Source: Candidatus Hydrogenedentota bacterium
GTDB lineage: Bacteria > Hydrogenedentota > Hydrogenedentia > Hydrogenedentales > SLHB01
Direction of reading: 5' to 3'
NCBI GenBank assembly: GCA_016215105.1
Contig: JACRLJ010000053.1
Coordinates: forward strand, 1 to 44,220
Length of the DNA: 44,220 nucleotides
Shown: in pieces, positions 6,995 to 44,220 of the stretch
Layout: each line of letters opens with the position of its first letter
Numbering within the stretch: position 1 is the stretch's first letter
Notes under the pieces: model-generated
Seen by the model: only the letters and a program-made list of their open reading frames with translations
Database searches by the model: none
Told to the model about the DNA's origin: nothing
Program-made: the position numbers and the translations under genes

Positions 6995-6997
6995 TCC

Positions 6998-7717: not shown

Positions 7718-7718
7718 G

Positions 7719-10294: not shown

Positions 10295-10332
10295 AGGGCC
10301 AAGCTGCCGTCTAAGCGCACTGACCCCTGTAG

Positions 10333-10380
10333 CGATCTGCTGGGATAAGATCGGTTAGAATACGGTCTAATGAGTAGACC
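10333..10380 (+). promoter_or_regulatory. Promoter and two inverted repeats at the HEPN/MNT operon start
   Basis: CGATCT (10333-10338) and AGATCG (10348-10353) form a perfect inverted repeat with a 9-base spacer, directly followed by a -10-like TAGAAT (10356-10361). A second perfect inverted repeat, GGTCTA (10364-10369) and TAGACC (10375-10380), brackets the five bases ATGAG that contain the start codon. No Shine-Dalgarno is visible, so translation may be near-leaderless. Either repeat could be an autoregulatory operator; the second could also fold in RNA. Confidence 0.4.
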
Positions 10381-10750
10381 TCACGAGGAATGGCTAAAGC
10401 AGTCGGCGTACGACTTGGACACTGCGGAGTTTATGTGGCGTGGTGGCAGGCATTTCTACGCCATGTTCATGTGCCATCTTTCTGTCGAAAAGGCGCTGAA
10501 GGCACTTTGGCAAGTAAGACTGGGAGAGACGCCGCCAAAGACCCACAATCTCCTATTCCTAGTCGGACGATGTGGTCTGGAGATTCCGCACGTTGTCCAT
10601 CGAATTCTGGCAGTGCTAAACGAGGCCCAAGTGACTACTAGGTATCCGCCTGACCTCGATCAGGTTAGCGCCAGCTATAACAAGAGCGCCGCACGGGATA
10701 TCTTGGATCAGGCAAAGGACGCATTGGAATGGATAAGGCAGCAGTTCTAG
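10370..10750 (+). CDS. HEPN domain protein of a HEPN/MNT toxin-antitoxin pair
   Basis: 126 residues, all-helical, with the HI0074/HEPN pattern: AMFMCHLSVEKALKALW, TPPKTHNLLFLV and TRYPPDL near residue 91. HEPN partners of minimal nucleotidyltransferases act as RNase toxins or as tRNA/RNA-binding partners. The usual R-X4-6-H catalytic motif of HepT toxins is not evident (the nearest is R24-x3-H28), so RNase activity is doubtful. The start ATG lies at the centre of an inverted repeat. The nucleotidyltransferase gene begins 22 bases before this stop, giving tight coupling. Confidence 0.85.
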   Translation: MSRPHEEWLKQSAYDLDTAEFMWRGGRHFYAMFMCHLSVEKALKALWQVRLGETPPKTHNLLFLVGRCGLEIPHVVHRILAVLNEAQVTTRYPPDLDQVSASYNKSAARDILDQAKDALEWIRQQF

Positions 10751-11123: not shown

Positions 11124-13016
11124 GTGTGCGGGATTTGTGGCGTCGCGAGAACTGGTGATCGGGGCCTGGTCTCGCTTGATCTGTTGGGCCGAATGGCGGC
11201 CACCATCGCGCATCGGGGACCCGACGACGAGGGCTTCTTCACCGACCGCTACGTGGGATTCGGGTTCCGGCGCCTTTCTATCATTGATCTTTCTCTGGGC
11301 CATCAGCCCATGTCCGACGCCGAGGAAAATGTCTGGATCGTCTTCAACGGCGAAATCTACAACTACCCGGAGTTACGCAAGGAACTGGAAGGACACGGCC
11401 ACGCCTTCCGCACCAACAGCGATACGGAAGTCATTCTTCACGGGTACAAGCAGTGGGGCAAAGGCGTCCTGACCCGTCTCAACGGCATGTTTGGATTCGC
11501 GATCTGGGACAAGCGAACCGAGCAGCTCCTAATCGCCCGCGACCGCATGGGCATCAAACTCATTTACTACGCGCAGGACAACGGAACTCTCATTTTTGGT
11601 TCCGAGATCCGGCCCATATTGGCCGCGCTGCCGTCACCGCCAGAGATGGACCCTGTAGCGCTCAACTTGTTCCTGCGCTATCGCTACACCCCGTCACCAT
11701 TGACCGTTTTCAAAGGTATCCGCAAACTCGCCCCGGGCACGTGCCTAATAGTGCGGAACGGCCGCATCGAGGTCGAGCGTTACGACACCTTCGCGCCCGA
11801 ACCGTTTAGTCCCATGCCTTCCATGGAAGACGCGGAGGAACAGCTTCTCGCGCTATACCGGCAGGCGGTAAAGCGGCAATTAATGAGTGACGTGCCGTTG
11901 GGACTGCTGCTAAGCGGCGGACTCGATTCGGGGCTGCTTCTTGGATTGATGAAGGAGTGTGGCGCTTCCTGGAACACGTATACCGTCGGATTCGGAACCA
12001 GCTTCAAGGACGACGAACTTGACGACGCAGCCGAGACGGCTCGTGTGTTAGGATCACCGAATTACGCCGTACGGCTGGATCGCGAGACGTTTGAAGCAAG
12101 CCTCTCTAAGATTGTCGCATACCTGGAAGAGCCGGTGGCGTCGCCCTCGATTGTGCCTATGTACCACGTGTGTCAACGGGCCCGCCAGGACGTGAAGGTG
12201 GCCCTGTGCGGTCAAGGCCCCGACGAACTGTTTGCGGGCTACCGTCGGCATTTGGGCGTGCGCTACGGCGCGTACTGGCGCAGTCTGCCGGAATGGGTTA
12301 GGACGCCGGCGCGCGGGGCGCTGGGGATGTTGCCGCGAAACGACGCCATACGCCGGGCCTTGTATTCGCTGGACGTGCCGGATCGCCTCCAGCGCTATCA
12401 GCAGGTCTTCTCGATCATGCGCGGCGATGTAATTGACGGTCTATTTCAGAAGGACGCGCTACCCGCGGGCGCCGGAGACGAGATTCTCGATTGCTGGGCG
12501 GACTATGCGCCGTTGATGCGGCACACGGATGAACTGGGCGGATTCAACTTCCTCGAAGTCCGCTCGTCGCTGCCGGACGAGTTGCTGATGTACGCGGATA
12601 AGTTGTCCATGGCGCACAGCCTGGAAACGCGCGTGCCGTACCTCGATCAGGACGTGGTGGAATATGCGGAGCGGCTTGATGCGTCGTTCAAGATACGCGG
12701 CTTGTCGCGCAAGTACCTTCATCGCCGGGTGTGCCGTAAGTACTTGCCCGAGGCGATTGTAAATCGCAAGAAGAAAGGTTTTGCAGTGAACGTAGTGGAC
12801 GATTGGTTTCGCGGATCGATTTCAGGCAAGCTGGAAGAGACGTTGCTGGACCCGCAGTCGCGCATGTACGCGTACATGGAACCCGGCGCCATCCGCGGGC
12901 TGGTGCGCCAGCATCTAGACGGCCAAAAGGATAACCACAAGATTCTGTTCAGTCTGGTAATGCTCGAAGAGTGGATGCGCAACTTCGCATCAAAGCCGCA
13001 GGCTGTGCAGGTATAG
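11124..13016 (+). CDS. asnB: Glutamine-hydrolysing asparagine synthase family amidotransferase
   Basis: 630 residues starting with GTG at 11124, chosen because Cys must be residue 2 (MCGICGVA) to act as the class II glutaminase nucleophile; a GAGGAG site lies 8 nt upstream. Glutaminase domain residues ~2-200 contain HRGPDDEGF, FNGEIYNY and ARDRMGIK. The synthase domain has the PP-loop LLSGGLDSGLLLG and a later GQGPDELFAGYRRH. In polysaccharide clusters this family often amidates uronic acids or other carboxylates rather than making Asn; the neighbours here (methyltransferase, glycosyltransferases) favour that. First gene of a long plus-strand glycan operon. Similar also to exosortase-associated amidotransferases, but no exosortase is in the window. 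Confidence 0.88.
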   Translation: MCGICGVARTGDRGLVSLDLLGRMAATIAHRGPDDEGFFTDRYVGFGFRRLSIIDLSLGHQPMSDAEENVWIVFNGEIYNYPELRKELEGHGHAFRTNSDTEVILHGYKQWGKGVLTRLNGMFGFAIWDKRTEQLLIARDRMGIKLIYYAQDNGTLIFGSEIRPILAALPSPPEMDPVALNLFLRYRYTPSPLTVFKGIRKLAPGTCLIVRNGRIEVERYDTFAPEPFSPMPSMEDAEEQLLALYRQAVKRQLMSDVPLGLLLSGGLDSGLLLGLMKECGASWNTYTVGFGTSFKDDELDDAAETARVLGSPNYAVRLDRETFEASLSKIVAYLEEPVASPSIVPMYHVCQRARQDVKVALCGQGPDELFAGYRRHLGVRYGAYWRSLPEWVRTPARGALGMLPRNDAIRRALYSLDVPDRLQRYQQVFSIMRGDVIDGLFQKDALPAGAGDEILDCWADYAPLMRHTDELGGFNFLEVRSSLPDELLMYADKLSMAHSLETRVPYLDQDVVEYAERLDASFKIRGLSRKYLHRRVCRKYLPEAIVNRKKKGFAVNVVDDWFRGSISGKLEETLLDPQSRMYAYMEPGAIRGLVRQHLDGQKDNHKILFSLVMLEEWMRNFASKPQAVQV

Positions 13017-13024
13017 GAAGACCC

Positions 13025-13945
13025 ATGACGGAAAACATTGGCGAGGTCCGGGAGTTTTGGGACAGCCATCCCTGCCAAAGTGATCTATCGGACGCAAACG
13101 ATCGCCGGATCTATTTCGACGAAATTGAGCGAAAGCGCTATGCCCATGAGCCGCACATCCCGGTCATCGCGCAGTTTGAAAACTACCACGGAAAAGACGT
13201 GTTGGAGATTGGTTGCGGCATTTCGACCGATGGCCTGCAATTTGCGCGAGGCGGCGCATGCTATACCGGCTATGACCTCACCCCGGCGGCCATAGCGACC
13301 GCGAAGGAGCGATTTGCCTTGTACGGCGCAGCAGGACGCTTTGAAAACGTTAATTGCGAACACATGCCTGCTCCGGACGAGAGCTTCGACCACATCTATA
13401 GCTTTGGCGTCATTCACCACTCGCCCAATACAGAAGCCATCGTCGCAGAAATGTACCGCGTGCTTCGGCCCGGGGGAACATTCTGTGTGATGATCTACAA
13501 TCGGTCGTCGATCAATTACTATGTCGAGATCATGTTCCTCCGGAGACTGTTCCGGTACATGTTGCTGCCTTCGTTCATGCCCAAATTGCTTAGCCGCATC
13601 ACGGGCTTTCCCGAATGGAAGCTGCAAGGTCACCGCGACGTGATGCTGAGCCAGGGCGCACTCACGAAAGAACAATGGATCAGCATCAATACCGACGGGC
13701 CCGACTGCCCCTTGGCCAAGGTCTATAATCGGCGCGAGGCCGGGGAACTCTTTCACGCCTTCCAGGACGTGCGTATGGAGGCGCACTTCTTTGACCGTAC
13801 CCATTGGCCGGTGATCGGAAAGCGGTTGCCGGATGGCTTTTGCCAATGGCTCGGTCGCCGCTGGGGATGGCACCGCGTCGTCTACGGAACCAAGCCTTTG
13901 ACGGGCGCCGCGTCCATCGGGCGTAGTAGCGCAGGCCGCTCGTGA
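13025..13945 (+). CDS. Class I SAM-dependent methyltransferase
   Basis: 306 residues from ATG at 13025, preceded by AGGAAG; an upstream ATG in frame would overlap asnB and add 18 unrelated residues. SAM-binding motif I is DVLEIGCGISTDGLQFA, motif II GYDLTPAAI, and the post-motif HMPAPDESFDHIYSFGVIHH and VLRPGGTFCVMIYN are typical. The C-terminal part (after about residue 160) has a hydrophobic stretch, FLRRLFRYMLLPSFM, found in methyltransferases of glycan clusters. Substrate unknown, probably a sugar or glycan intermediate. Its stop overlaps the next gene's GTG by 4 bases. Confidence 0.85.
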   Translation: MTENIGEVREFWDSHPCQSDLSDANDRRIYFDEIERKRYAHEPHIPVIAQFENYHGKDVLEIGCGISTDGLQFARGGACYTGYDLTPAAIATAKERFALYGAAGRFENVNCEHMPAPDESFDHIYSFGVIHHSPNTEAIVAEMYRVLRPGGTFCVMIYNRSSINYYVEIMFLRRLFRYMLLPSFMPKLLSRITGFPEWKLQGHRDVMLSQGALTKEQWISINTDGPDCPLAKVYNRREAGELFHAFQDVRMEAHFFDRTHWPVIGKRLPDGFCQWLGRRWGWHRVVYGTKPLTGAASIGRSSAGRS

Positions 13946-15159
13946 TACGGACTTCAAGGCCGATTCGCAGTTGCATGGTAGTCTTTTCGTACTACCCCGC
14001 CGATCCGCGGCCACGGCGGGAAGCGGAAGCCTTGGTGGACGCCGGCATGGCGGTAGACCTAATTTGTCTGCGTAACGAGGGGGAACTGTCGCACGAAGTC
14101 GTAAACGGTGTAGGCGTGTACCGTTTGCCCATACAGCGCAAGCGCGCGGGTAAAGTGCGCTATCTGTGGGAATACGCGCTCTTCATTCTGCTTGCATTTT
14201 TCAAATTGTCCGCTCTGCATCTGCGCCGTCGTTACGACGTTGCACACGTTCACAACATGCCGGACGTGTTGGTGTTCAGCGCGCTGCTGCCGCGTCTCAC
14301 GGGCGCGAAAGTCATTCTCGACCTTCATGATCCGATGCCGGAAGTCTACATGACGAAGTACGATATCGGCGCGGACCATCCCGTTATTCGGACGCTGCGG
14401 CTATTCGAGAAGTGGAGTATCGCCTTCTCGCACCTCGTGCTGACGCCGAATATCGCGTTTTGCGATTTGTTTGCGGCGCGCAGTTGCGAGTCCTCCAAGG
14501 TGCATGTGATCATGAATTCTCCCGACCTGCGCATCTTCGGCGGAAGATCGCATGCGCCGTCGAGCGCCGCCGCGGGCGCGCAGTTCGTCGTCATGTTTCA
14601 CGGTACGATTGTGGAGCGTCACGGGCTGGACACCGCGCTCGAGGCCGCGGCAAAACTGCGCAACGCGATACCCGAATTGCGCTTTGAAGTATACGGCGAA
14701 GGGGACTTCGTCGAGCGATTTCAGGAAATCGTACGTGAATTGAAACTCGAAGACATCGTTCATTACCACGGACGCGTGTCTTTGGAAAAGATCGCTTCGG
14801 CGATTCCGTCCATCAATGTCGGACTGGTGCCGAACAAACGGAGCGTTTTCACGGACATCAATTTGCCGACCCGCCTGTTCGAGTACTTGTGTATGGGAAA
14901 GCCTGTAATCGCTCCCAAGACCAAAGGTATCCTGGACTATTTCACTGAAGACGCTCTCCCCTATTTCGACGCCGGAGATGTGGATAGTTTGGCGGCGGTA
15001 ATTCAGGACTTACACGATCACCCGGATCGCGTCAAGAGCTACCTCGAACGTGGTACCGCCATCTATGAAGCTCACCGGTGGGATGTGCAGCGGGAAGAAC
15101 TAATCGCGCTGGTGGCTGCACTGGCGGTGGGTCCGAAGATGTCCTCGGGACCGCAGTGA
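13942..15159 (+). CDS. GT4 family glycosyltransferase
   Basis: 405 residues from GTG at 13942 (GTGA overlap with the methyltransferase stop). A GT-B fold: N-terminal VVFSYYPADPRPRREAEAL and DVAHVHNMPDVLVFSALL, a membrane-associating helix around residues 70-90, and C-terminal domain beginning VVMFHGTIVERHGLDTALEA. The donor-binding region has NLPTRLFEYLCMGKPVIAP, in which the second Glu of the classic E-X7-E pattern is weak. GT4 enzymes are retaining transferases that use NDP-sugars; acceptor is probably the growing lipid-linked glycan on the cytoplasmic face. Translationally coupled in the operon. Confidence 0.87.
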   Translation: MIRTSRPIRSCMVVFSYYPADPRPRREAEALVDAGMAVDLICLRNEGELSHEVVNGVGVYRLPIQRKRAGKVRYLWEYALFILLAFFKLSALHLRRRYDVAHVHNMPDVLVFSALLPRLTGAKVILDLHDPMPEVYMTKYDIGADHPVIRTLRLFEKWSIAFSHLVLTPNIAFCDLFAARSCESSKVHVIMNSPDLRIFGGRSHAPSSAAAGAQFVVMFHGTIVERHGLDTALEAAAKLRNAIPELRFEVYGEGDFVERFQEIVRELKLEDIVHYHGRVSLEKIASAIPSINVGLVPNKRSVFTDINLPTRLFEYLCMGKPVIAPKTKGILDYFTEDALPYFDAGDVDSLAAVIQDLHDHPDRVKSYLERGTAIYEAHRWDVQREELIALVAALAVGPKMSSGPQ

Positions 15160-15163
15160 CGTC

Positions 15164-16069
15164 ATGTCCAATCTCACGTACGTAGTAATAACGCCGGCCC
15201 GAAATGAAGCGGACAGCATCGAGCGCACGCTTCAATCCATGACCGCGCAAACGGTCGCGCCGCTACGGTGGGTGGTGGTGAGCGACGCTTCCACGGACGG
15301 CACGGACGACTTGGTCCGTGGCTACGCAGAACGTTTCGATTGGATCAGGCTGCTGCGCTTGGAAGGTGAGGCAAACCGCAATTTCGGGGCCAAGGTCCGC
15401 GCGTTCAAGGCGGGCTATGATTTGGTGAAGGATCTCGCGTTCGATGTTATCGCGAACGTCGACGCCGACGTTTCGTTTGAACCCGACCTGTTTGCGTTTC
15501 TTCTCGATCGGTTCGCGGAAGCGTCCGATCTGGGCGTGGCGGGCGTGCCTATGGTGGAACGCGGCCACGACGCCGTGAATGACGGCCTGTTCAATCCCGA
15601 GGACGTGTTTGGCGCGTGCCAGCTTTTCCGGCGTCAGTGCTATCTTGACACAGGGGGGTATCAGGCGATTCCGTGCGGCGGGATCGACTTTGTCGCGGTG
15701 CGAACGGCGCGGATGCGAGGCTGGCGAACCCAATCGTTTCTTGAAAAGCGCTTCCACCACCACCACGTCATGGGCGCCGCCGGAACGAGCGTGTTGGGCG
15801 CGCGGTACAAGTACGGGCTACGCGACTACTATTTTGGCAACGATCCATTGTGGCAAGTGTTTCGCACCGCCTATCAGTTTACGCGCAAACCCGTGGGTCT
15901 CGGCGGCCTGTGGCTCTTGGCGGGATACCTGTCCGGCGTCGTGAAACGTCTCGAAAGGCCGGTGTCAGCAGAGTTCATCGCCTTTCACCGGCAGGACCAG
16001 CGGAGACGATTATGGCGCGTCTTGCGAAAACTCGCAGGTATTCGTGAATCGGAGGGGAAGAAGGCATGA
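15164..16069 (+). CDS. GT2 family glycosyltransferase
   Basis: 301 residues with a GT-A core: YVVITPARNEADSIERTLQS, VVVSDASTDGTDDL, a long NFGAKVRAFKAGYD segment, and the metal-binding DVIANVDADVSF. Further down, FGACQLFRRQCYLDTGGY and IDFVAVRTARMRGWRT resemble the acceptor/active-site region, and HHHHVMGAAG is a His-rich loop. The C-terminal LGGLWLLAGYLSGVV may be a membrane helix. Start ATG at 15164, 4 bases after the previous stop, lacks a strong ribosome site and probably depends on coupling. An inverting sugar transferase of the glycan cluster; specificity unknown. Confidence 0.87.
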   Translation: MSNLTYVVITPARNEADSIERTLQSMTAQTVAPLRWVVVSDASTDGTDDLVRGYAERFDWIRLLRLEGEANRNFGAKVRAFKAGYDLVKDLAFDVIANVDADVSFEPDLFAFLLDRFAEASDLGVAGVPMVERGHDAVNDGLFNPEDVFGACQLFRRQCYLDTGGYQAIPCGGIDFVAVRTARMRGWRTQSFLEKRFHHHHVMGAAGTSVLGARYKYGLRDYYFGNDPLWQVFRTAYQFTRKPVGLGGLWLLAGYLSGVVKRLERPVSAEFIAFHRQDQRRRLWRVLRKLAGIRESEGKKA

Positions 16070-17277
16070 CCGAGCAGCGGACGGCACAGGTGAGGACAGC
16101 GGTGGACCGCTTTGTTCATTGGCTGGACGCCTTTGGCGAAACGTCGCAGGATCAGCAGGACTTCCTCGCCTGTCCTTACGGGCGCTGGGCGAAGGAGCTT
16201 TATTACCAGCGTCCAGTGGTGGGCAAATTCTTTGTGGCGCCGTTGATATTCTGCGAAGCGTTCGCGCCGTCTACGCGCGGCCTATTTCTCTCTCGCAGCC
16301 GCCTGCCCATCGCGGACGCGCACTTTGCGATGGGGTACGCTTTCTTGCACCGCGTGACCGGTGACTCGGCGCATTTCGACCGAATGGCCCATTTCCTGGA
16401 GGTATTGCGGCAAACGCGTTGCCCGGGGTTCGAGCATTATTGCTGGGGATATCCGTTCGATTGGCAGACGGTGTGGGGGACCTTTCCGAAGGGTACGCCG
16501 ATGATTACGACCACCCCATACTGCTACGACGCGTTTGCCGACGCGTACGAGATCGACCCGCGTCCGGAATGGCGCGCCGTTATGCGTTCCATCGCCGAAC
16601 ATGCTCTGCGCGATCTCAACGATGTGGAATTGGCGCCGGGAGTATATGCGGCGTCATATACGCCGTTAGACAAGCGCCGCGTCGTAAACGCCAACGGTTA
16701 TCGCGCGCGGACGCTGGCCGCCGCGGCGCGTGATTTCAACGAAAAGGAGTATTGGCGCGTGGCCGAGCGCAACGTGAACTTCGTGCTGCAATCGCAACAG
16801 GCGGACGGATCGTGGCTCTACGCCATGGACGGTGAAGGCAAGTTTATCGACAATTTCCACACCTGCTTTGTGCTCAAGCACCTCGCACGTGTCGAGGAAC
16901 TGACCGGCCACGCGGGATGCCACGAAGCCATCGAACGCGGCGCCCGGTACTATCTCGACCACCTGCTGGACTCGGACGGATTACCCATACCCTTTGCCAA
17001 GGCGCCGCGCTTGGTGATGTACAGGCGCGACCTGTACGATTATGCGGAATGCGTCAACCTTGCGCTCCTGTTGCGCGAGCGGATGCCGGAGTGGAACCGC
17101 GTGCTCGATACCGTGCTGGCGGATTTGTTCGCGCGCTGGCAAAAGCCCGACGGATCGTTCCGTTCACGGCAATTGCGATTCGGATGGGACAACTGTCCCA
17201 TGCACCGCTGGGCGCAGTCCCAGTTGTTCCGAAGCTTGACCCGGCTGCTTTGGCTTGCCGCGGACGACGGCTCTTGA
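16066..17277 (+). CDS. Alpha/alpha-barrel-like protein of a polysaccharide cluster, function unknown
   Basis: 403 residues; ATGA overlap with the previous gene and a strong GGAGGGGAAGAAGG site. No signal peptide or membrane helix. The repeating helical pattern with W, Y and G-rich turns (ADAHFAMGYAFLHRVTG, HYCWGYPFDWQTVWG, ANGYRARTLAAAARDF, QQADGSWLYAMDGEG, KPDGSFRSRQLRFGWDN) fits an (alpha/alpha)6 toroid such as six-hairpin glycosidases, epimerases or terpenoid-cyclase-like folds. The two DGS(W/F) turns recall QADGSW-type toroid repeats. No catalytic pair can be assigned. The soluble cytoplasmic prediction and position between sugar transferases suggest it acts on a glycan or sugar intermediate. 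Confidence 0.7.
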   Translation: MTEQRTAQVRTAVDRFVHWLDAFGETSQDQQDFLACPYGRWAKELYYQRPVVGKFFVAPLIFCEAFAPSTRGLFLSRSRLPIADAHFAMGYAFLHRVTGDSAHFDRMAHFLEVLRQTRCPGFEHYCWGYPFDWQTVWGTFPKGTPMITTTPYCYDAFADAYEIDPRPEWRAVMRSIAEHALRDLNDVELAPGVYAASYTPLDKRRVVNANGYRARTLAAAARDFNEKEYWRVAERNVNFVLQSQQADGSWLYAMDGEGKFIDNFHTCFVLKHLARVEELTGHAGCHEAIERGARYYLDHLLDSDGLPIPFAKAPRLVMYRRDLYDYAECVNLALLLRERMPEWNRVLDTVLADLFARWQKPDGSFRSRQLRFGWDNCPMHRWAQSQLFRSLTRLLWLAADDGS

Positions 17278-17324
17278 ATCGCTGAGCCTATGGCGCGAAA
17301 TGACCATTTCTAGACAAGGACGCT

Positions 17325-18509
17325 ATGACCAAGGGCAATGTTGAGATTAGACAGATCGCGGTCAAGGACATCTACCGCTTTGCCTGTGAAGCGTTTCGCT
17401 GCGAACTCGGCGCCGGTGAAGTGAATCCTATCCCCAAGAGTCGGGCATCGGCGTGGTCTCAGAACCCCAATGCCGATCCGGACGATCCGGCAATGCTTGC
17501 GGCGTACATCAACGGAGTCTGTGTAGGCTATATAGGTCTTATGCCGGTAATACTGTCGCACGCGGCGGAAAGGGAGAAAGTGTTCTGCCTTTCAACGTGG
17601 TTTGTATCCCCCGCATCGCGGGGCTCCGGCGCCGGCGCGCTTCTGCTGACGCGCGCGATGAGCCTTCACGAAAACCTCTTCTCTATCGCCCCTACGCCAG
17701 AAGCCGAGGAATTGTACCGGGCGATTCGTTTCAAGGAGTTGGGTCCTATGCGCCACTTCATGCTCTACTTAGGCGCGCTGAATGTGCTTGGGTTGCCATT
17801 TGATATTCTCAAGCGCGTTCTGGCGCGGCGCGGACTCTCAGTACGCAGCGTCGAGATAGCTAGCAGAATCTTCCGGCGGATTCTTTATCCAGCGTTCCGC
17901 TTGGCAGCCTATCGGATGATCCGGGCGCCGTTTGCAAAGTTCCTTTGTGATACGACTTACTCTGAAGTCGACCGTATTGATGAGACCCTGTTCAACGCGG
18001 ACGATTCCGCGGCGCCGGGCTCCGCTCGATTCTTTCGCGGATCCGATGCCATAAACTGGATGCTTCGCGCCCCGTGGATTCTTGAAGACACTACCCAGGC
18101 AACGCCCGGCTATGAGTTTAGCGATGTTCGCCCGCGGTTCAGATATATTGCGCTTAAGATTACTCCCGATGGCGGAAACGAAAGGCCAGGATTCCTTGTC
18201 TTGTCGGTCTCTACGCGCACGGACGGTGAAACTACGCTGAAGGTTCTTGATTATTCTCTAAATTGCGATTACCGCCACGAACGCTTGGCCGCGGTCGCGC
18301 TGGAATACGCTGTCCGTTTTCGTGCAGACCGCGTTCTGGCGCCGCGACCCATTGGTGATACACTGCGGATTTCCGGAGTGGCGCGAAGGATATTGCTGAA
18401 ACGTGAGCACCGGTACTTCGCGTATTGCGGAAAACGGAAGAGTTTCTTCGCAGATCATCTGGGCGCAATCGAGACGGGGCTCTGCGACGGAGACGCGCCA
18501 TTTATCTAG
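17325..18509 (+). CDS. GNAT family N-acetyltransferase domain protein
   Basis: 394 residues, ATG at 17325 after AAGGA. The N-terminal ~150 residues resemble a GNAT fold: CVGYIGLMPVILS, CLSTWFVSPASRGSGAGALL (the acetyl-CoA V-x-P-x-x-R-G-x-G-x-G/A loop) and APTPEAEELYRAIRFKELG. The remaining 240 residues hold a helical linker and a second alpha/beta region (FRYIALKITPDG, RPGFLVLSVST), possibly a second GNAT-like half as in FemX-type double-GNAT proteins. Expected to transfer an acyl group to an amine on a sugar or peptide. Forms part of the glycan operon, followed closely by a polysaccharide deacetylase. Confidence 0.75.
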   Translation: MTKGNVEIRQIAVKDIYRFACEAFRCELGAGEVNPIPKSRASAWSQNPNADPDDPAMLAAYINGVCVGYIGLMPVILSHAAEREKVFCLSTWFVSPASRGSGAGALLLTRAMSLHENLFSIAPTPEAEELYRAIRFKELGPMRHFMLYLGALNVLGLPFDILKRVLARRGLSVRSVEIASRIFRRILYPAFRLAAYRMIRAPFAKFLCDTTYSEVDRIDETLFNADDSAAPGSARFFRGSDAINWMLRAPWILEDTTQATPGYEFSDVRPRFRYIALKITPDGGNERPGFLVLSVSTRTDGETTLKVLDYSLNCDYRHERLAAVALEYAVRFRADRVLAPRPIGDTLRISGVARRILLKREHRYFAYCGKRKSFFADHLGAIETGLCDGDAPFI

Positions 18510-18543
18510 GGCAAACGAGATCGGCCAAACCGGGACGAAGGAT

Positions 18544-19584
18544 ATGCCGTTGAGAGAAATCGCACGGGACGCGATTCTATCGTGGACGCCGCTGGCGCCG
18601 TTGCAAGCGATGGTGAAACGCGATGTTGTCGGCGTCAATTATCATCTGGTGAGCGCCGAGCCAAGTCCTCTTGTCAGTCCACTATTCTCGTTTAAGACTC
18701 CCGCACAATTCGAATCCGATCTGCATTTTCTGAAGAGCCACTACTCCATGGTCGGTTACGCCGATACTGCGGCGCAGATCCTCGGCGGACGATCCATCCT
18801 TCCTTCGCGCGCAGCCCTCTTGACCTTCGACGATGGATTTGCCGAATGTCACACAACCGTTCGGCCCTTGCTGCTCAAGCATAAGATCCCGGCGGTGTTC
18901 TTTGTCATTACGGACGCCCTGAATAACCGTTTTCTGCCCTATCGCAACCGCGTAGCGCTGTGCTTGGATCGGTTACGGCGCGCGACGGACGATGAATTTG
19001 GCGGCTTCGCCTCTGAGTTGAAGGCGCTTGCGCCACAAGCCCGTTCTTCACGCGAAGCTGCGGAGAAATGGGTCCGTTCGTTGACGAACCGGGACACTGC
19101 CGTCTTGGACGCGATCTTCCGTTTGCTCAATATTGACCCACAGGCATTTCTGACTGTGCGAAAACCGTTCTTGAGCACGGATCAAATTCTAGAGTTGGTC
19201 CGAGACGGTTTCACCATTGGAGCACACAGCGTTACGCACACGGATTTCTCGCTCCTGGACGAGCCGGCGATTGAGCGTGAAATCGTCGAGTCATGCGCGG
19301 TTGTATGCGCGTTGACCGGTGCGAGTCACGCGCCGTTTGCGTTTCCCTTTAATGGCAACAGCCTAAAGCGTCTCTTTTTGGCCGATGTTCGGAAGAGAAA
19401 TCCGCACGTCGGGTTGTACTTCGACAACTGCGGGTTCCCGCTGGATCACGAATGGGTTGTCGGACGCATGACATGCGACTTGCCCGGCGGCTGCAGTGCG
19501 GGGCATTCGAATCTCGGCCGATGGTTGAAACGCGCTTACGCGCGCGGGTTGGTGAGTCAGATCACGCGGAAACAACGTCCATGA
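18544..19584 (+). CDS. Polysaccharide deacetylase (NodB/CE4 family)
   Basis: About 346 residues. The NodB motifs are intact: LTFDDGF (Asp96, Asp97) and the metal-binding HSVTH (His228, His232). No signal peptide is visible, so it may act in the cytoplasm on a lipid-linked intermediate. The start is uncertain: ATG at 18544 has AAGG only 2 nt upstream, and TTG at 18550 would give better spacing; longer in-frame starts overlap the GNAT gene in another frame and are less likely. The insert between the motifs (residues ~125-210) is longer than in the minimal domain. Removes N-acetyl from amino sugars, which would expose an amine for later acylation. Confidence 0.85.
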   Translation: MPLREIARDAILSWTPLAPLQAMVKRDVVGVNYHLVSAEPSPLVSPLFSFKTPAQFESDLHFLKSHYSMVGYADTAAQILGGRSILPSRAALLTFDDGFAECHTTVRPLLLKHKIPAVFFVITDALNNRFLPYRNRVALCLDRLRRATDDEFGGFASELKALAPQARSSREAAEKWVRSLTNRDTAVLDAIFRLLNIDPQAFLTVRKPFLSTDQILELVRDGFTIGAHSVTHTDFSLLDEPAIEREIVESCAVVCALTGASHAPFAFPFNGNSLKRLFLADVRKRNPHVGLYFDNCGFPLDHEWVVGRMTCDLPGGCSAGHSNLGRWLKRAYARGLVSQITRKQRP

Positions 19585-19611
19585 TGGACGACAGGGAGCA
19601 CACGACCAACT

Positions 19612-20379
19612 ATGGCGGATGAATCGTTGAAATGCCGTCGCTTTGAGGGCAAAGTCGCGCTCGTGACGGGCGCCTCATCAGGTATCGGTGAAGCGACAGC
19701 GCGCCGATTGGCGGGCGAGGGCGCCGTCGTCGTCCTAGTGGCGCGTCGGCGCACGCTGCTTGAGGCGGTCTCTAATGACGTTACCGCCGCCGGGGGAACT
19801 GCGCTGCCGATCGACGCCGATGTGACTGACTCCGAACAGATGTCAGCCGCTGTGCAGGCCACACTTGAAGAATTCGGCCATTTGGATGTGTTGACCAATT
19901 GTGCTGGAAAAGAACTGTTCAAGCCTTTGCCCATGATCAAGCCCGAACAATTGCGAGAGCTTCTTGAAGTTAATGTGGAAGGAGTGGTCAACACGTGCCG
20001 GGCCGCATATCGGAAGATGAGCGACGGGGGCGCGATCGTCACCGTGGCTTCCGCGAGCGCCTTTGTGGGAAGCGCTGCGTCTGCGGCGTACGCGCTGACG
20101 AAAGGCGGACTGATTTCGTTTTCAAGATCCCTGGCTGCGGAGCTGGCGCCCCGCCGCATTCGCGTCAATTCGGTGTCGCCGGGCATGGTCAAGACCGACC
20201 TGTCTGACCGGATGTTCGCCAAGATGACGCCGGAGCAGGTGGAAAAACTTCGCGCGAATCACCTGTTGGACTTTGGGCGTCCGGCGGACGTTGCGGCTGC
20301 AATCGCATTCCTGGCTTCGGACGACGCGGGCTGGATCACGGGCACAGACTTGGTGGTGGACGGAGGTCTCTCGTGCTAA
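19612..20379 (+). CDS. Short-chain dehydrogenase/reductase, FabG-like
   Basis: 255 residues with a classical SDR layout: the NAD(P) motif LVTGASSGIGEATA (19-31), a NCAG box (TNCAG, 95-99), catalytic Ser near 147-149 (VASASAF), Tyr160 and Lys164 in YALTKGG, and a terminal GTDLVVDGG. An Arg pair (VARRR) after beta2 suggests NADPH. Closest by pattern to 3-oxoacyl-ACP reductases, but sugar reductases look alike. It begins a block with an acyltransferase, KAS III and ACP, so reduction of a 3-ketoacyl-ACP is a good hypothesis. ATG at 19612; the AGGGAG site is rather far upstream. Confidence 0.88.
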   Translation: MADESLKCRRFEGKVALVTGASSGIGEATARRLAGEGAVVVLVARRRTLLEAVSNDVTAAGGTALPIDADVTDSEQMSAAVQATLEEFGHLDVLTNCAGKELFKPLPMIKPEQLRELLEVNVEGVVNTCRAAYRKMSDGGAIVTVASASAFVGSAASAAYALTKGGLISFSRSLAAELAPRRIRVNSVSPGMVKTDLSDRMFAKMTPEQVEKLRANHLLDFGRPADVAAAIAFLASDDAGWITGTDLVVDGGLSC

Positions 20380-20435
20380 TATCGTAAATCGACAGCATCT
20401 TGGCTGATGGCAGGAAAGAGACGGACGGCAAAGCT

Positions 20436-21101
20436 ATGGCGAAACGCCTGGTAATTTATGGTGGAGGGGACATTGCGCGTGTCGCGTCAGTCTATTTTCG
20501 TAAGGACAGCCCTTACGAGGTCGCGGCGTTTACCGTCCCCGGGAAAGACGTGCGCCTCGCTTCCATGTTGGGCATTCCGATAGTACCATTTGAAGAAATC
20601 GAAGATCGCTATCCCGCGTCAGATTACACGATGTTCGTGGCGACGGGATTCGCGCGCGTCAACGCGGAACGCGCGGAAATCTATGAAACATGCAAGTCCA
20701 AAGGGTATGAATTGGCCACCTACGTAAGCTCCAAAGCGATTCACTTTGATGAGTTCGAGATTGGTGACAATTGTCTGGTCGCGGAGGGCAATGTGATTCA
20801 GCCCTTCGCGAAAATTGGCAACAACGTCATTCTGTGGAGCGGCAACTTCATCGGTCACAATTCTCAGATCGGCGACCATTGTTTTGTTACGTCCCATGCG
20901 GTACTATCCGGCGGCGTTCAGCTTGGACCGTATTGTTTTGTGGGCGTGAACGCCTGTTTTCGCGACTATGTGCGCATTGCCCCCAAGTGCGTGATCGGAG
21001 CCGGCACGGTCATTCTGCGCAATACCAAACCCGGCGGCGTGTACGCAGTGCGGAGTTCTCCGCCCTTGCCGTTGGACAGCGAGGACTTGCGAATGAAGTG
21101 A
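20436..21101 (+). CDS. NeuD/PglD-like sugar acyltransferase, left-handed beta-helix
   Basis: 221 residues from ATG at 20436, chosen because families of this type begin with KRLVIYGGGDIARV; an upstream TTG at 20400 would add 12 residues. No strong ribosome site for either. The N-terminal Rossmann-like part (GGG) binds the UDP-amino-sugar in PglD. The C-terminal hexapeptide repeats are clear: AEGNVIQPFAKIGNNVILW, NSQIGDHCFVTSHAVLSGG, LGPYCFVGVNACF and CVIGAGTVIL. His in TSHAVLSGG sits where the catalytic base of PglD/NeuD is found. Family members acetylate sugar amines or hydroxyls from acetyl-CoA; the adjoining ACP suggests an acyl-ACP donor here. Confidence 0.85.
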   Translation: MAKRLVIYGGGDIARVASVYFRKDSPYEVAAFTVPGKDVRLASMLGIPIVPFEEIEDRYPASDYTMFVATGFARVNAERAEIYETCKSKGYELATYVSSKAIHFDEFEIGDNCLVAEGNVIQPFAKIGNNVILWSGNFIGHNSQIGDHCFVTSHAVLSGGVQLGPYCFVGVNACFRDYVRIAPKCVIGAGTVILRNTKPGGVYAVRSSPPLPLDSEDLRMK

Positions 21102-21155
21102 GGCACGGAACTGCGTTCGCTGCCCGCGTGATTGCTAAAGAGAGGTGTCAGGCGT

Positions 21156-22184
21156 ATGCCACAACCCAAAGCGGTAGTCAAAGGAATCGCCACCCATTTG
21201 CCGGAGCGGCGGCTGACCAACGAGCAGCTTGCAACGGAGTACGGCGATTGGACTGCGGAAAAAATCGAGCAGAAGACCGGCATTGTCGTGCGCGCGGTTG
21301 CCGGGCCCGAGGAGTGTGCGTCCGATCTCGGCTATGCGGCGGCTCAGAGACTATTTGAATCCGGTGTTTGCGCTCCGGCGGACGTTGACTTTCTCTTGTT
21401 CTGTACGCAGAGCCCGGACTACTTCCTTCCGACTACGGCGTGTTTGCTCCAAGACCGGTTGGGGTTGCCCCGCGGCGCCGGCGCCCTCGACTTCAACTTG
21501 GGATGCTCCGGCTTCGTATACGGTCTGTCCATGGCGAAAGGGCTCATCGAAAGCGGCCAAGCCAAGAACGTGCTGCTGATTACCTCGGAAACCTATTCGA
21601 AGTACATTCACCCGAAAGATCGCAGTGCGCGGACGATCTTCAGCGACGGCGCCGCCGCGACATGGATCACCGGTTGCGATTCGAACGAGGAATTGCTCGG
21701 ACCGTTTGTGTACGGCACGGATGGCCGCGGCGGCTGCAATCTGATTGTGCCCGCCGGCGCCCTGCGTACGCCCCATAGCCCCGCCACCGCGCGCGAGGAA
21801 ACCGACGAATCAGGCAATGTCCGGGCCAAGGACAACTTGTATATGAATGGCCCGGAGATATTTAACTTCACGCTCGAGGCGGTACACTTGGCAGTGCGCG
21901 AATTGGTAGCCAAGTGCGGGCGTACGATAGCCGACGTGGACTACGTGGTGCCTCACCAGGCGAACCGGTTCATGCTGGATCATCTTCGCAGAAAGAGCAA
22001 AATTCCCGCGGAGAAATTCTGCGTCAACGTCGAACACTTCGGGAATACGGTTTCGAGCACTATCCCGATGGCGCTGGAACGGGCGATGCAGGATGGCGCC
22101 GTAGGCAAAGGCGCCAACGTGATGATTATCGGGTTTGGCGTCGGGTATTCGTGGTCGGCGGGCATGATGCGCCTCGCGTTTTGA
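21156..22184 (+). CDS. 3-oxoacyl-ACP synthase III family protein (KAS III, FabH-like)
   Basis: 342 residues from ATG at 21156, preceded by AGAGAGGTG; an earlier ATG adds 8 unrelated residues. The catalytic triad of KAS III is intact: Cys117 in FNLGCSGFVYG, His267 in VVPHQANRFM, and Asn297 in HFGNTVSSTIP. Ends in the usual GFGVGYSWSAGMM. KAS III condenses acetyl-CoA with malonyl-ACP to give acetoacetyl-ACP; some relatives are acyltransferases. It is in a glycan cluster, not a fatty-acid operon, next to a dedicated ACP and FabG-like reductase. Confidence 0.9.
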   Translation: MPQPKAVVKGIATHLPERRLTNEQLATEYGDWTAEKIEQKTGIVVRAVAGPEECASDLGYAAAQRLFESGVCAPADVDFLLFCTQSPDYFLPTTACLLQDRLGLPRGAGALDFNLGCSGFVYGLSMAKGLIESGQAKNVLLITSETYSKYIHPKDRSARTIFSDGAAATWITGCDSNEELLGPFVYGTDGRGGCNLIVPAGALRTPHSPATAREETDESGNVRAKDNLYMNGPEIFNFTLEAVHLAVRELVAKCGRTIADVDYVVPHQANRFMLDHLRRKSKIPAEKFCVNVEHFGNTVSSTIPMALERAMQDGAVGKGANVMIIGFGVGYSWSAGMMRLAF

Positions 22185-22272
22185 CCGCATCCCGATGTGT
22201 CCGAGTTTGGTCCGGTGACGCGTTTTACGTATCATATGCTGTCGTCGGCTTGAAGTGGTCAAGGAGTGTGAA

Positions 22273-22515
22273 ATGAGCAATCAGGCGTTCTTGGACGAGT
22301 TAGCGGAAGCGTTGGATTATGGCGGAGCGATCACAGCGGATTCACCGCTTGGCGAAGACATCTGGAATTCGATGGCAATCGTTTCCGTCATTGGCCTGAT
22401 TGACGAGCACTTCGATGTAACCGTCCCCGGGGAAGCGCTCCAAAAGTGCGCAACGGTCGGAGCGCTCATTGCGCTGATAGAGCAACAACGGAAGCTTGAC
22501 GGCGAGCCGAGTTGA
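22273..22515 (+). CDS. Acyl carrier protein
   Basis: 80 residues from ATG at 22273, with AAGGAG 6 nt upstream. The helical pattern of ACPs is seen, with GEDIWNSMAIVSVIGLIDEHF around the phosphopantetheine site. Ser33 is the expected attachment residue. The usual preceding Asp of D-S-L is Asn here (W-N-S-M), which may change recognition by the phosphopantetheinyl transferase. It resembles the W-D-S-L type of small carrier proteins found in specialised clusters rather than housekeeping AcpP. Last plus-strand gene of the acyl block; a convergent glycosyltransferase follows. Confidence 0.88.
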   Translation: MSNQAFLDELAEALDYGGAITADSPLGEDIWNSMAIVSVIGLIDEHFDVTVPGEALQKCATVGALIALIEQQRKLDGEPS

Positions 22516-23901: not shown

Positions 23902-24319
23902 CTGTTTCAGACCTTTCACAGATCGTTCGCGCGCCGAAGGCTTCCATCTTATCCGTTGCCGGTCGAAACGCGCTACGCGCCGCGCATCTCGCCAAGACCC
24001 CCATCCTCCGCGTTTGCTTACGACCGCGACGGTACCCTACCATACGCCAACAAAGCTGTTCAATTGGTCTGGAGTGCGCGGGAATAGCGCAGGCCCATCC
24101 ACTTCGGTCTGTCCTAACGGTAATGCGCAATCAAGGTTGTGACGCGCAGGCGCTACTGTCACGCCAACAGAGTTCGAACTTCAGTATGGCTGACATCGGC
24201 CGGGTACAAAACGCCGGCGGGCCAATACGGAACGCGTGCGGCGTGATGGTTTGGCGCAAGACATCAACCCCACGGGTGGCGGTTCGACGGTCGTGTCGCA
24301 TAGGAAAGCAAATTACGCA
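23902..24319. other. Divergent intergenic region
   Basis: About 418 bases between the minus-strand GT4 and the plus-strand ligase gene. No gene supported. It must hold the promoters for both directions; I see no confident -35/-10 pair. GTGACG and GTCACG occur about 20 bases apart near 24139-24163 as a loose inverted repeat. Confidence 0.35.
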
Positions 24320-25600
24320 ATGACGGTAGATGAGGCGCATGGGCCGCGGAACACCACGGCAGTTTTCAGGAAAGGCTTCTTCCTGATTGTTATCGCGGCC
24401 CTGCCGGTCCTGTTGACTTCGCGCGAACCCTTACTTATCGCCGCATTGGGGGGTATGGCGGCGGTACTGCTTGCGCCGTTCGCGTCCACCGCATTCCTCC
24501 TGTTCCTGAGCCTGTCGCTGGGATTGGTCACGCTGTTGAGCGAGTTTGTCCTCCCGGGCCCCGGTTTTCGGTTGTACGGCTCGGATTTGGTCCTCTATTT
24601 CCTGATCCTTAGCGGATTCACATTATTCCTGCGACGCGCGCGGGTGGGCCGGCCCGTTCTCGAAAAACGCTTGTTGCTTCTGGTTGGCCTAATGACAGCG
24701 TTCGGCGTAGTCGAATTGGGCAGAGGGCTGCTCGTCCAACATTTCGAAATGAACGATGCCGCCGGGGACTTCCGGCGCCTGTTTATCTACCCGCTTGCTA
24801 TGGTCGTTCCGCTACTCCTGCCGATGGGGAAACGTCACAGCGGCATGGTCAAGTTCGCCATTATGGGCGGCGCCCTTTTGGTTATAGCCACGGGCGCATA
24901 CCGGCTGGCGACAGGGCAGTCGTTCCATGCGGACTATTTCACCGAGACCGAGTACGATCCGCGGCTCCTTTCCTCTACCGAGACAGTGACCTTGGAGATG
25001 GCCTTAGCCTACCTGACAGCGATGACCGTGGCCGGGGCGGGGTGGATGAGGCGAATGTCCGCCCTGGTTCTTGGCGTAGTCTGCGCGGCATTCATGGTGG
25101 TCAGCGGCTGGCGTTTGGCGGCGGGGTTTGTCGTAATCAGTCCAGTGATGGCGGTGATTCTGATGGGGCGAATGCGAAAGCGCCGCCTCGTGGGCCTGGT
25201 AACACTCGCCTTGAGCGTGGTGCTTGTGAGTGTCGGCGGGGTCGTTGTGCTGGCCATGGCGGCGCCGGAGACATTTGCCCGGGCCTTCCACCAATATCAA
25301 GGACGTCTGAACACCTTTGATATTGGACACGACGCGCGCCTCTGGGCCTGGAAACAAGCCGTGGAACTTTGGGCTGACCAGCCCATACTCGGGATTGCAC
25401 GGAACAATCGTCTGGCATTTCTTTTCGCGCATGCGCACATTGCTTCCAGAGTACCGCGCCGCCGCCGTTGGCCTGTTCGCCGGCTATGTGAGCAGTGTCA
25501 CTACGCATTCGTTGGAGCCGTTCGAGAACGCCGGCATTGTCTCGCTCTATGCCATGATTGGATTTCTACTTGTTCTATTGCGCGATACAGAGAACCATGA
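24320..25600 (+). CDS. O-antigen ligase/polymerase-like membrane protein, frame-disrupted
   Basis: Start at ATG 24320 (AGGAAAG 11 nt upstream). The first ~355 residues have about ten membrane helices and end in RLWAWKQAVELWADQPILGI, the W-x-x-A-x-x-x-x-x-x-x-P-x-x-G-x-G motif of Wzy_C/WaaL proteins. After PILGI the frame turns into a basic, Cys/Arg-rich tail unlike this family. The natural C-terminus is found in another frame (see 25389-25682). The conserved His/Asn loop between the two parts is missing, so this looks like a deletion with frameshift. Expected role of the intact protein: polymerising or ligating the lipid-linked glycan in the periplasm. The product is probably inactive, unless the break is an assembly error. 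Confidence 0.7.
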   Translation: MTVDEAHGPRNTTAVFRKGFFLIVIAALPVLLTSREPLLIAALGGMAAVLLAPFASTAFLLFLSLSLGLVTLLSEFVLPGPGFRLYGSDLVLYFLILSGFTLFLRRARVGRPVLEKRLLLLVGLMTAFGVVELGRGLLVQHFEMNDAAGDFRRLFIYPLAMVVPLLLPMGKRHSGMVKFAIMGGALLVIATGAYRLATGQSFHADYFTETEYDPRLLSSTETVTLEMALAYLTAMTVAGAGWMRRMSALVLGVVCAAFMVVSGWRLAAGFVVISPVMAVILMGRMRKRRLVGLVTLALSVVLVSVGGVVVLAMAAPETFARAFHQYQGRLNTFDIGHDARLWAWKQAVELWADQPILGIARNNRLAFLFAHAHIASRVPRRRRWPVRRLCEQCHYAFVGAVRERRHCLALCHDWISTCSIARYREP

Positions 25601-25682
25601 CAAGGCATGTGAGTTGACCCCGTTACCTGAATCCAGCGGCCCTACGGAAGACGCTACAGGCGGCGCCGTATGGGACAGATAA
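25389..25682 (+). pseudogene. Displaced C-terminal part of the O-antigen ligase-like gene
   Basis: From the bases TCGGGATTG at 25389-25397 the plus-strand frame ending at 25682 reads SGLHGTIVWHFFSRMRTLLP, then EYRAAAVGLFAGYVSS and AGIVSLYAMIGFLLVLL. This is membrane-protein sequence typical of the end of Wzy/WaaL proteins (GLxG motif followed by two helices). It has no start codon of its own. Its stop overlaps the first 13 bases of the flippase gene, the tight spacing expected of the native operon, which supports this as the original end of the gene. Confidence 0.6.
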
Positions 25683-31538: not shown

Positions 31539-33147
31539 GTTTACCGAGGTTCTTGAGGATGAGCGCGAGCACCGTCCCCACGGCGAGTATGAGCGCGGCC
31601 CACAGCAGCACGGCGTAGCGCTCGCTCCAGGGTCCGGGCGTGGCCGCCTTTTCCAGGAATCTTGGCTCGCCGGCCGTGGCGGCAGGCAAATCCGGCCTGT
31701 CGAGGCCGCGTTGCGCGATAGCCAGATCGAATGAAGGCGCCGCCGCCGCTGCGTTGCCGCCGATGAGACTATACGACTCGCCAGGCGTGTACTCGAACAC
31801 GACACCCACATCCCACCGTTTGACTGCAATGGACGGAATCACGAGCGGCGGGTTGTCTTGTTCGAAGACGCGTAATCGCAGGTAACGATAGGCCGCGCGG
31901 ACTCCAACGATCGTGTTCGACTCGGCGGTCTTGTCCTCGTGTTGGACGCGGTAGAGAACACCGCGGGCGATTGATGTCCACGGCGCCTCGCGCTCTTCGG
32001 TTTCCCACTTGGTTTCCGTTCTGCGCTGCGTCTGAATCTTCTCCGCGTTTCGGCCTTCGAGTTCGTACGCGCGGTGGTAGAAACGGTCCGATACAGTGAC
32101 TTCGAGTGTCGCTACCGGCACATTCCTGTAGCCGAGATCCAAGTCGTATACGTTCTGATGCGTCTTTTCGTCGAACTGCGGCGAGGACGCTTTCACGGCG
32201 ACGGGAATCAGCGGAGTCTCCGGCGTCTCCGTCCAGCGCGCGGTTTGCACGGACGTGATCTCGATGCGGCGCGGGTCGTCGGGCATGTTGAAGACAGTGA
32301 TTCGCAGGTGGCGGAAGTTGCTCGTAGGGAAGGACAGCTCGTCCACTCTGCACGCCTTGTCCGGCAGCGGGACATCAAACAGCCAGCCGTTCTCCAGGAG
32401 GATGTCCCATGAAGCGCCGTCGCTGCTTCCTTCGACCGTCACCCTCCGCCGGAAATTTGCGCCGTCGGTTACGATCTTAATCCGATTCCTCGGAACGGCA
32501 TCGCCCAAGTCCACTGTTACCCGCGAATACTGCTGTGGCTGGAATACGGGATTCAGCAGCCCCGTGCTTTTCCACTCGACACGCGAGATAGCGTGCCCTC
32601 CGGCCCAGCGGACGACATAGGGAACCAAGTCTTCGCGTTGGTCGAGGACGCGCAGGTCGGCCAGCGACGGTTGGCTGGTGTCCAGGACGTCCAGCGGGAG
32701 CGGCAGGCGCACGAATTGCGATTGAGCCACGGCCGCGGAGATCGGCCGGGTCCAGGTCCAATCCTTGGTGTCGAACGCGGCGCTCGCGGATAGACATACG
32801 GAAAAGACAGCAATCGCCAAAATCTCAGCGCGGCGTAGCCGCAACCCAAAATGCGTACGCTGACAAATGGTGGCGGTGCGCGCGCCCCTATGTGGCTCAC
32901 AAATGGTGGCGGTGCGTGCGCCCCGGGAGGGTCGGCGTCCCCGCCGACCTTCACCGCCCATGCGCCCAGTGTTCTGCAAGAACCTTGCCGCGCGATTAAC
33001 CGCCCCATCCCTTTGCGTGCTACCGGCGCCAAGGCCGGTCGGCGAGGACGCCGACCCTCCAGCGCGAACTTCTGCAAAAGAGCAAATAGGAGTGGCGGGT
33101 AGTCGCGCAAAATGAACCAGTGCGGCGTGGTGTGTTCGTATCTTCAT
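31525..33147 (-). CDS. DUF3999 family membrane-anchored protein
   Basis: 540 residues in the open frame. The ATG at 33147 overlaps the upstream DUF2339 stop (ATGA), which supports it as the coupled start. Residues ~110-125 (ILAIAVFSVCLSASAAFD) look like the hydrophobic core and cleavage site of a signal peptide, which is normally at the very N-terminus. The intervening ~80 codons are Arg/Gly/Thr-rich and coincide with a repeat element (32863-33060), so this gene seems to have received an in-frame insertion. The mature part (DWTWTRPISAAVAQSQFVRL...) is DUF3999-like and ends in a membrane helix (RYAVLLWAALILAVGTVLAL). Pairs with DUF2339 as in other bacteria. Confidence 0.8.
   Translation of the reverse strand: MKIRTHHAALVHFARLPATPICSFAEVRAGGSASSPTGLGAGSTQRDGAVNRAARFLQNTGRMGGEGRRGRRPSRGARTATICEPHRGARTATICQRTHFGLRLRRAEILAIAVFSVCLSASAAFDTKDWTWTRPISAAVAQSQFVRLPLPLDVLDTSQPSLADLRVLDQREDLVPYVVRWAGGHAISRVEWKSTGLLNPVFQPQQYSRVTVDLGDAVPRNRIKIVTDGANFRRRVTVEGSSDGASWDILLENGWLFDVPLPDKACRVDELSFPTSNFRHLRITVFNMPDDPRRIEITSVQTARWTETPETPLIPVAVKASSPQFDEKTHQNVYDLDLGYRNVPVATLEVTVSDRFYHRAYELEGRNAEKIQTQRRTETKWETEEREAPWTSIARGVLYRVQHEDKTAESNTIVGVRAAYRYLRLRVFEQDNPPLVIPSIAVKRWDVGVVFEYTPGESYSLIGGNAAAAAPSFDLAIAQRGLDRPDLPAATAGEPRFLEKAATPGPWSERYAVLLWAALILAVGTVLALILKNLGKLKGA
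32863..33060. repeat. Repeat element inside the 5' part of the DUF3999 gene
   Basis: Two 26-base direct copies starting ACAAATGGTGGCGGTGCG lie at 32863-32888 and 32899-32924 with one difference. They are followed by GGAGGGTCGGCGTCCCCGCC plus GACC (32926-32949) and its inverted partner at 33037-33060, with one mismatch over 24 bases and an 87-base spacer. The whole block stays open in the DUF3999 frame. Confidence 0.8.
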
Positions 33148-44208: not shown

Positions 44209-44220
44209 AAAAGCGTGTCA

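Follow-up and report, generated by a model that had tools for sequence, protein, structure and literature searches.

What does a small set of genes for building and transferring an acyl chain do at the end of a glycan gene run, and does it belong to fatty-acid synthesis or to the decoration of a sugar? The question is raised by contig JACRLJ010000053.1 of a Candidatus Hydrogenedentota bacterium (GCA_016215105.1), of which the whole stretch of 44,220 nucleotides, called here the window, was analysed. The window is an entire contig (C26) of the 6.68-Mb genome and ends at 44220, so that linked genes past the contig ends are not visible. Four open frames on the plus strand, in the order given by an earlier note on this DNA, were confirmed:

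19612..20379, plus strand: reductase of the short-chain dehydrogenase/reductase (SDR) family, proposed 3-oxoacyl-ACP reductase (ACP, acyl carrier protein) with a VioR/WfpF-like role (PF13561, 209 bits; catalytic residues; neighbourhood)
20436..21101, plus strand: left-handed beta-helix (LbH) N-acyltransferase of the NeuD/PglD family (TIGR03570, His141, tree, AlphaFold2 model)
21156..22184, plus strand: 3-ketoacyl-ACP synthase III (KAS III) of a glycan-associated subfamily (PF08545/PF08541; Cys117-His267-Asn297; tree)
22273..22515, plus strand: dedicated ACP with the 4'-phosphopantetheine site at Ser33, codon at 22369 (PF00550, 25.6 bits)

With a probability of roughly 0.58, this set serves a surface-glycan cluster as a dedicated module for acyl-donor supply and N-acylation, in which KAS III and the SDR make 3-hydroxybutyryl-ACP and the LbH enzyme N-acylates an amino sugar carried on a nucleotide. 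According to this scheme, KAS III would form acetoacetyl-ACP from acetyl-CoA, the presumed primer, and the malonyl group carried by the dedicated ACP, the SDR would reduce this product to 3-hydroxybutyryl-ACP, the LbH enzyme would move the acyl group to the sugar amine, and the glycosyltransferases of the cluster would build the acylated sugar into the glycan. Beside the primer, we infer the single extension, the use of ACP by the LbH enzyme, the chain length and stereochemistry of the acyl group, and the acceptor; genes on other contigs probably supply the latter as an amino-deoxysugar nucleotide.

The gene content and the catalytic residues are intact. The better start codons are ATG at 20436 (LbH), 21156 (KAS III) and 22273 (ACP), later than those of the earlier note; the gaps preceding the SDR, LbH, KAS III and ACP genes are 27, 56, 54 and 88 nt, respectively, and none of the four genes shows a frameshift. 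Thus, a KAS III with Cys-His-Asn, an SDR with Ser-Tyr-Lys, an ACP with its serine and an acyltransferase stand in one run. The KAS III triad seen in the earlier note was found as Cys117, His267 and Asn297; the protein passes the broad KAS III model NF006829 (275.4 against a cut-off of 249), stays below the cut-off of the fabH model TIGR00747 (240.4 against 292.1) and matches PDB entry 3gwa with 409 bits. The ACP passes PF00550 modestly (cut-off 20.8), with serine at the Ser33 position in 15/15 aligned ACPs, and the SDR retains all of Asn121-Ser147-Tyr160-Lys164. The beta-helix acyltransferase of the earlier note was borne out by TIGR03570 (NeuD_NnaD), passed with 172.4 bits against the curated cut-off of 160.8 as the sole match above cut-off in the genome, by histidine at the His141 position in 16/16 aligned sequences, and by an AlphaFold2 model (pLDDT 80.1, pTM 0.77) with an N-terminal Rossmann-like domain and a left-handed beta-helix. 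The best solved matches of this model by VIA-align, a second look at the Foldseek list that speaks for the families within that list, are PerB, PglB, WeeI, PglD and VioB; the top 14 rows are such enzymes (Z 12.7-10.6, root-mean-square deviation about 10 over 170-197 residues), the next row scores 7.3, and Foldseek alone gives a best E of 0.019.

The module stands apart from the housekeeping set of the same genome. The genome contains 5 matches to PF00550 and 3 KAS III matches at E<=1e-40, of which one of each lies adjacent in the module; this scarcity, together with the recurrence of the same neighbourhood in many phyla, argues that the module is not a product of chance. The housekeeping acpP-fabF-rnc is located on contig C116 and fabH on C149, and the module ACP shares 19% identity with that acpP, which agrees with the dedicated carrier proposed in the earlier note. 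In a tree of 106 rows (105 and the window, taken from 153 candidates after near-copy removal and length filter, with a short search and SH-aLRT support only), the KAS III of the window falls inside the glycan-associated subfamily and is separated, with support 100, from the 29 rows of the housekeeping clade. Among the relatives, KAS III at E<=1e-40 was found in 30 of the 60 genomes searched, including the own one, and none of the matches listed outside the own genome exceeds 38% identity to that of the window.

Much closer sequences occur in distant lineages. The KAS III of the window shares 50-61% identity with 80 loci across 13 phyla, the best of 352 confirmed; they were found via KAS III, and therefore describe modules with this type of KAS, and they are not independent, as 33 are of Bacteroidota, much of these Flavobacterium. 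The scattered distribution suggests horizontal spread of the subfamily. ACP and SDR stand near KAS III in 55/80 loci, with an LbH acyltransferase too in 43/80, a second KAS occurs in 39/80, and a DegT aminotransferase lies at <=4 kb in 33/80; the neighbour profiles were partly built from matches in the same loci, and contigs cut short are kept among the 80. In Burkholderia glumae, a KAS III of the subfamily adjoins vioA, and amino-sugar genes are near the LbH enzyme in 6/8 of its relatives read on plasmids.

The proposed 3-hydroxybutyryl transfer is favoured by these counts and by the company of KAS III in B. glumae (vioA, ACP, SDR, acetyltransferase), by the distance of KAS III from FabH with the genome's own acpP-fabF and fabH elsewhere, by the DegT and other amino-sugar neighbours, by the presence in the genome of one phosphopantetheinyl transferase and one RmlB that pass their cut-offs, and by Sporomusa/Selenomonadaceae, where enzymes of this LbH clade are also paired with KAS III. 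It is also favoured by Pseudomonas syringae, where the accessible part of the published description lists the same four functions and reports the loss of 3-hydroxybutyryl-viosamine on mutation of vioB or vioR (PMC3927599). The set is a real 3-hydroxyacyl module and probably a functional one.

Several results weigh against this reading. The SDR scores 192.4 with the FabG model TIGR01830 (cut-off 297.75), and only a broad SDR subfamily model passed; the 'FabG' label therefore rests on context, and of the 'FabG-like SDR' of the earlier note the SDR with its catalytic residues stands, while FabG identity by profile does not. None of ACP, SDR, LbH or second KAS is nearby in 16/80 KAS III loci. No match to a DegT aminotransferase or a Polysacc_synt_2 dehydratase was found on C26, and the best genome match to B. 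glumae VioA has 35% identity. The LbH sister, in genome G018 of the same family (53% identity; methyltransferase and GH32-like gene around), was read over a 16.9-kb stretch, in which KAS III, ACP and SDR are all absent, and the surroundings of 8/8 plasmid relatives read (L160-L167, of 12 records matched; H30, H35, H38 and H39 left out) lack them too, so that the LbH enzyme may use acetyl-CoA.

Among the alternatives, two survive best, each unlikely to about the same degree. The first is a different acyl chain, if KAS III were primed with another acyl-CoA or, by acting in two rounds, led to a 3,5-dihydroxyhexanoyl group. Primer choice varies among KAS III enzymes. Such genes are credited with the 3,5-dihydroxyhexanoyl group of Flavobacterium psychrophilum in the accessible text of PMC6519341; however, that locus, like the 39 loci with a second KAS, has two KAS genes and the window one, and the one-KAS set of P. 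syringae makes a C4 chain (PMC3927599, as far as the text available goes). By a rule drawn from these two cases, the single KAS of the window points to a C4 chain.

In the second, the LbH enzyme would be a common N-acetyltransferase with acetyl-CoA as its donor, and what KAS III, SDR and ACP produce would be meant for a different acceptor or be used by a different transferase, e.g., the upstream GNAT. The KAS-free sister and plasmid relatives, as well as the presence of a GNAT in the same run, speak for this, whereas the LbH gene sits between SDR and KAS III, the KAS III-ACP-LbH combination recurs in L041, L058, L110 and L111, and a GNAT-deacetylase pair occurs without the module in G018. In the tree of 26 LbH proteins, L041, L058 and L111 (L110 is not in the tree) are on a branch separate from the window. 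There the window enzyme is among the 14 members of a clade that is divided by a 98/95 split from the VioB/PglD-type enzymes found in most KAS modules, and does not group with the latter; its best PDB match has 56 bits, while two VioB/PglD-type module enzymes match VioB or PerB best, with 87 and 115 bits. At least three changes of the KAS III-pairing label are needed on this tree, in which gains and losses are indistinguishable. As a tentative extension, the KAS III-ACP(-SDR) genes may form a cassette that supplies acyl donors and can move between glycan clusters, having been coupled independently to VioB/PglD-type LbH enzymes, to the second LbH clade (window, Sporomusa) and perhaps, in Acidobacteriota, to AAC(3)-type enzymes, switching N-acetyl to N-hydroxyacyl decoration.

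Two groups of loci deviate in composition. In six Acidobacteriota loci (L039, L042, L043, L049, L051, L052), the gene directly after KAS III encodes an AAC(3)-type (Antibiotic_NAT) protein, from a cluster of such proteins, without ACP or SDR nearby (assignment checked by Pfam on L052 and L039); it is possibly another acyltransferase partner of KAS III. The four Sporomusa/Selenomonadaceae loci have KAS III-ACP-LbH with no SDR within 3.5 kb, and here the group transferred might be acetoacetyl, or the SDR might be encoded elsewhere.

A further alternative depends on two genes that precede the module:

17325..18509, plus strand: GNAT-family acyltransferase, likely partner of the deacetylase (PF00583, 27.9 bits)
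18544..19584, plus strand: NodB-type polysaccharide deacetylase (PF01522, 54.8 bits; TFDDG and HxxxH-type motifs), with no obvious signal peptide by eye

The earlier note proposed that the acyl group is put on a sugar amine, possibly one freed by this deacetylase; the sugar in question would be lipid-linked or part of a polymer. The idea of a short 3-hydroxyacyl on a sugar amine is supported, in that the gene content matches the set published for P. syringae (PMC3927599, accessible part) and KAS III adjoins vioA in B. glumae; the deacetylase link is weak, and an acceptor of that origin appears quite improbable. The gene does end only 27 nt upstream of the SDR, and a deacetylase follows KAS III directly in two Acidobacteriota loci (L057, L073), but no deacetylase stands next to KAS III by profile in the other 78/80, where 2/80 is a lower bound because the profile was built from three sequences including L073; moreover, L057 and L073 have no LbH within 4 kb. 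In G018, a homologue of the GNAT (38%) adjoins a deacetylase and no KAS III of the window's subfamily is present, so that the adjacent GNAT is the simplest and likely partner of the deacetylase. A GNAT-deacetylase parallel is given by HfsK/HfsH of the Caulobacter holdfast, whose chemistry is itself unproven and whose likeness to the present pair is drawn from part of the published description (PMC5362036). Finally, the solved enzymes of the NeuD/PglD fold (PerB, PglD, VioB) act on nucleotide-linked amino sugars, not on deacetylated polymer.

The weakest alternative, a displaced piece of housekeeping fatty-acid synthesis, is very improbable: fabH, fabG and acpP frequently adjoin one another in bacteria, but a housekeeping operon is rejected here in view of acpP and fabH on other contigs, the position of KAS III outside the FabH clade and the low ACP identity, to which the LbH acyltransferase and the glycan context are added.

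If the module transfers 3-hydroxybutyryl as proposed, the acceptor would be, with moderate confidence, an amino-deoxysugar bound to a nucleotide and produced by genes in other parts of the genome. The rest of the genome contains 20 DegT matches beside the single RmlB and phosphopantetheinyl transferase. Pseudaminic acid genes PseB, PseG and PseI are located on contig C137 (L149, 5061-9884), and a Gfo/Idh oxidoreductase with a DegT protein on C61; either could supply the amino sugar. The aminotransferase of a Geobacteraceae module (L036) has its best genome match, 42%, on C74, which does not settle the acceptor. Viosamine as the acceptor is not supported, as no VioA-like gene exceeds 35% identity over most of its length. 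Among the plasmid LbH relatives, a DegT-type transaminase is near the LbH gene in L160, L163, L164, L165 and L167, and an FdtA/QdtA cupin with rfbA/rfbB in L162, while no amino-sugar genes are listed for L161 and L166.

The module is the end of a run of 11 genes of one direction (11124-22515, intergenic gaps -46 to 88 nt), in which the GNAT, the deacetylase and the module are preceded by the following genes:

11124..17277, plus strand: asparagine-synthase-like amidotransferase, methyltransferase, family 4 glycosyltransferase (GT4), family 2 glycosyltransferase (GT2) and a 403-aa protein, in this order (profile matches)

The NCBIfam model nearest to the amidotransferase is the XrtA/PEP-CTERM amidotransferase, with a score under its cut-off, and the 403-aa protein has no Pfam match. 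The run closes at the ACP, which is faced by a GT4 gene of the opposite strand, followed by an O-antigen-ligase-like open reading frame (ORF) and a flippase-like gene. The ligase-like gene (24236-25682, plus strand) is in two frames (ORFs 24236-25600 and 25317-25682) and looks broken, whether through a genuine frameshift or through an error in the assembly; a membrane-protein gene (33144-35526, minus strand) is also spread over overlapping ORFs of two frames (33144-35024 and 34489-35526). On the other side, consecutive GT2, LAB_N (lipid A biosynthesis N-terminal domain) and PMT-type glycosyltransferase genes (6923-10294, plus strand) resemble lipid-carrier sugar modification systems, and a single HEPN-domain protein (10370-10750, plus strand; PF05168, 78.7 bits) separates the two glycan gene groups.

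If the proposed function is true, the KAS III subfamily would be a sequence marker to predict hydroxyacyl-decorated glycans in phyla with few studied glycans, and the LbH enzyme of the window against its KAS-free sister would offer a direct test of a change of the N-acetyltransferase donor from CoA to ACP.

In comparison with known systems, the general idea of an amino sugar that carries a short 3-hydroxyacyl group in amide linkage is likely to hold and is not new. The viosamine island of P. syringae, in the accessible part of its description, comprises vioS (KAS III), vioB, vioR (SDR) and acp, with dTDP-N-(3-hydroxybutyryl)-2-O-methylviosamine as the product; the modified viosamine is lost in vioA, vioB, vioT and vioR mutants, and the vioS and acp steps are assigned by homology (PMC3927599). 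Like the window, this island and orfB-orfE of Pseudomonas aeruginosa PAK have one KAS III, SDR, ACP and sugar acyltransferase in a glycan cluster, so that the comparison with known clusters suggested in the earlier note returned the same four functions; unlike the island, the window contig is without vioA, a viosamine transferase and flagellin genes. In F. psychrophilum, wfpC/wfpE (two KAS), wfpD (ACP), wfpF (reductase) and wfpG (PglD homologue) are proposed, in the available text, as makers and transferers of the 3,5-dihydroxyhexanoyl group that nuclear magnetic resonance showed on Qui2NAc4N, and thus KAS, ACP, ketoreductase and a PglD-homologous acyltransferase stand together in an O-polysaccharide locus as in the window (PMC6519341); that locus has UDP-Qui2NAc4N genes (pglE/pglF type), and the window contig none. 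Other fatty-acid genes occur in flagellin islands of Enterobacteriaceae and Aeromonas, according to the accessible parts of PMC4875605 and PMC7874193. On plasmid pBGF3 of B. glumae the order is flagellin, fliD, fliT, TPR protein, vioA, KAS III, ACP, second-KAS stretch, SDR, acetyltransferase and Rieske gene; the KAS III (53% identical to that of the window) with ACP, SDR and acyltransferase is the common part, whereas vioA, the Rieske gene, the second KAS and an acyltransferase of only 25% identity set it apart. The second KAS fills a gap of the gene table (L157, about 9080-10300) in two pieces of different frames. The Sporomusa acidovorans (L041, L058, L110) and Selenomonadaceae (L111) loci share KAS III, ACP and an LbH of the same clade with the window (44-49% identical in L041, L058 and L111), differing by the missing SDR and, in L041, by methyltransferase, GH32-like and GNAT genes after the LbH. 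The acyltransferase of the window, in a comparison made with the B. glumae equivalent, is from another LbH clade than the latter. It is by this clade that the window differs from the precedents in the open-licence literature covered, which is no claim that the variant is unpublished. The module is not classed as a member of the viosamine islands, because linkage to vioA was sought and not found; it works like the viosamine-island set.

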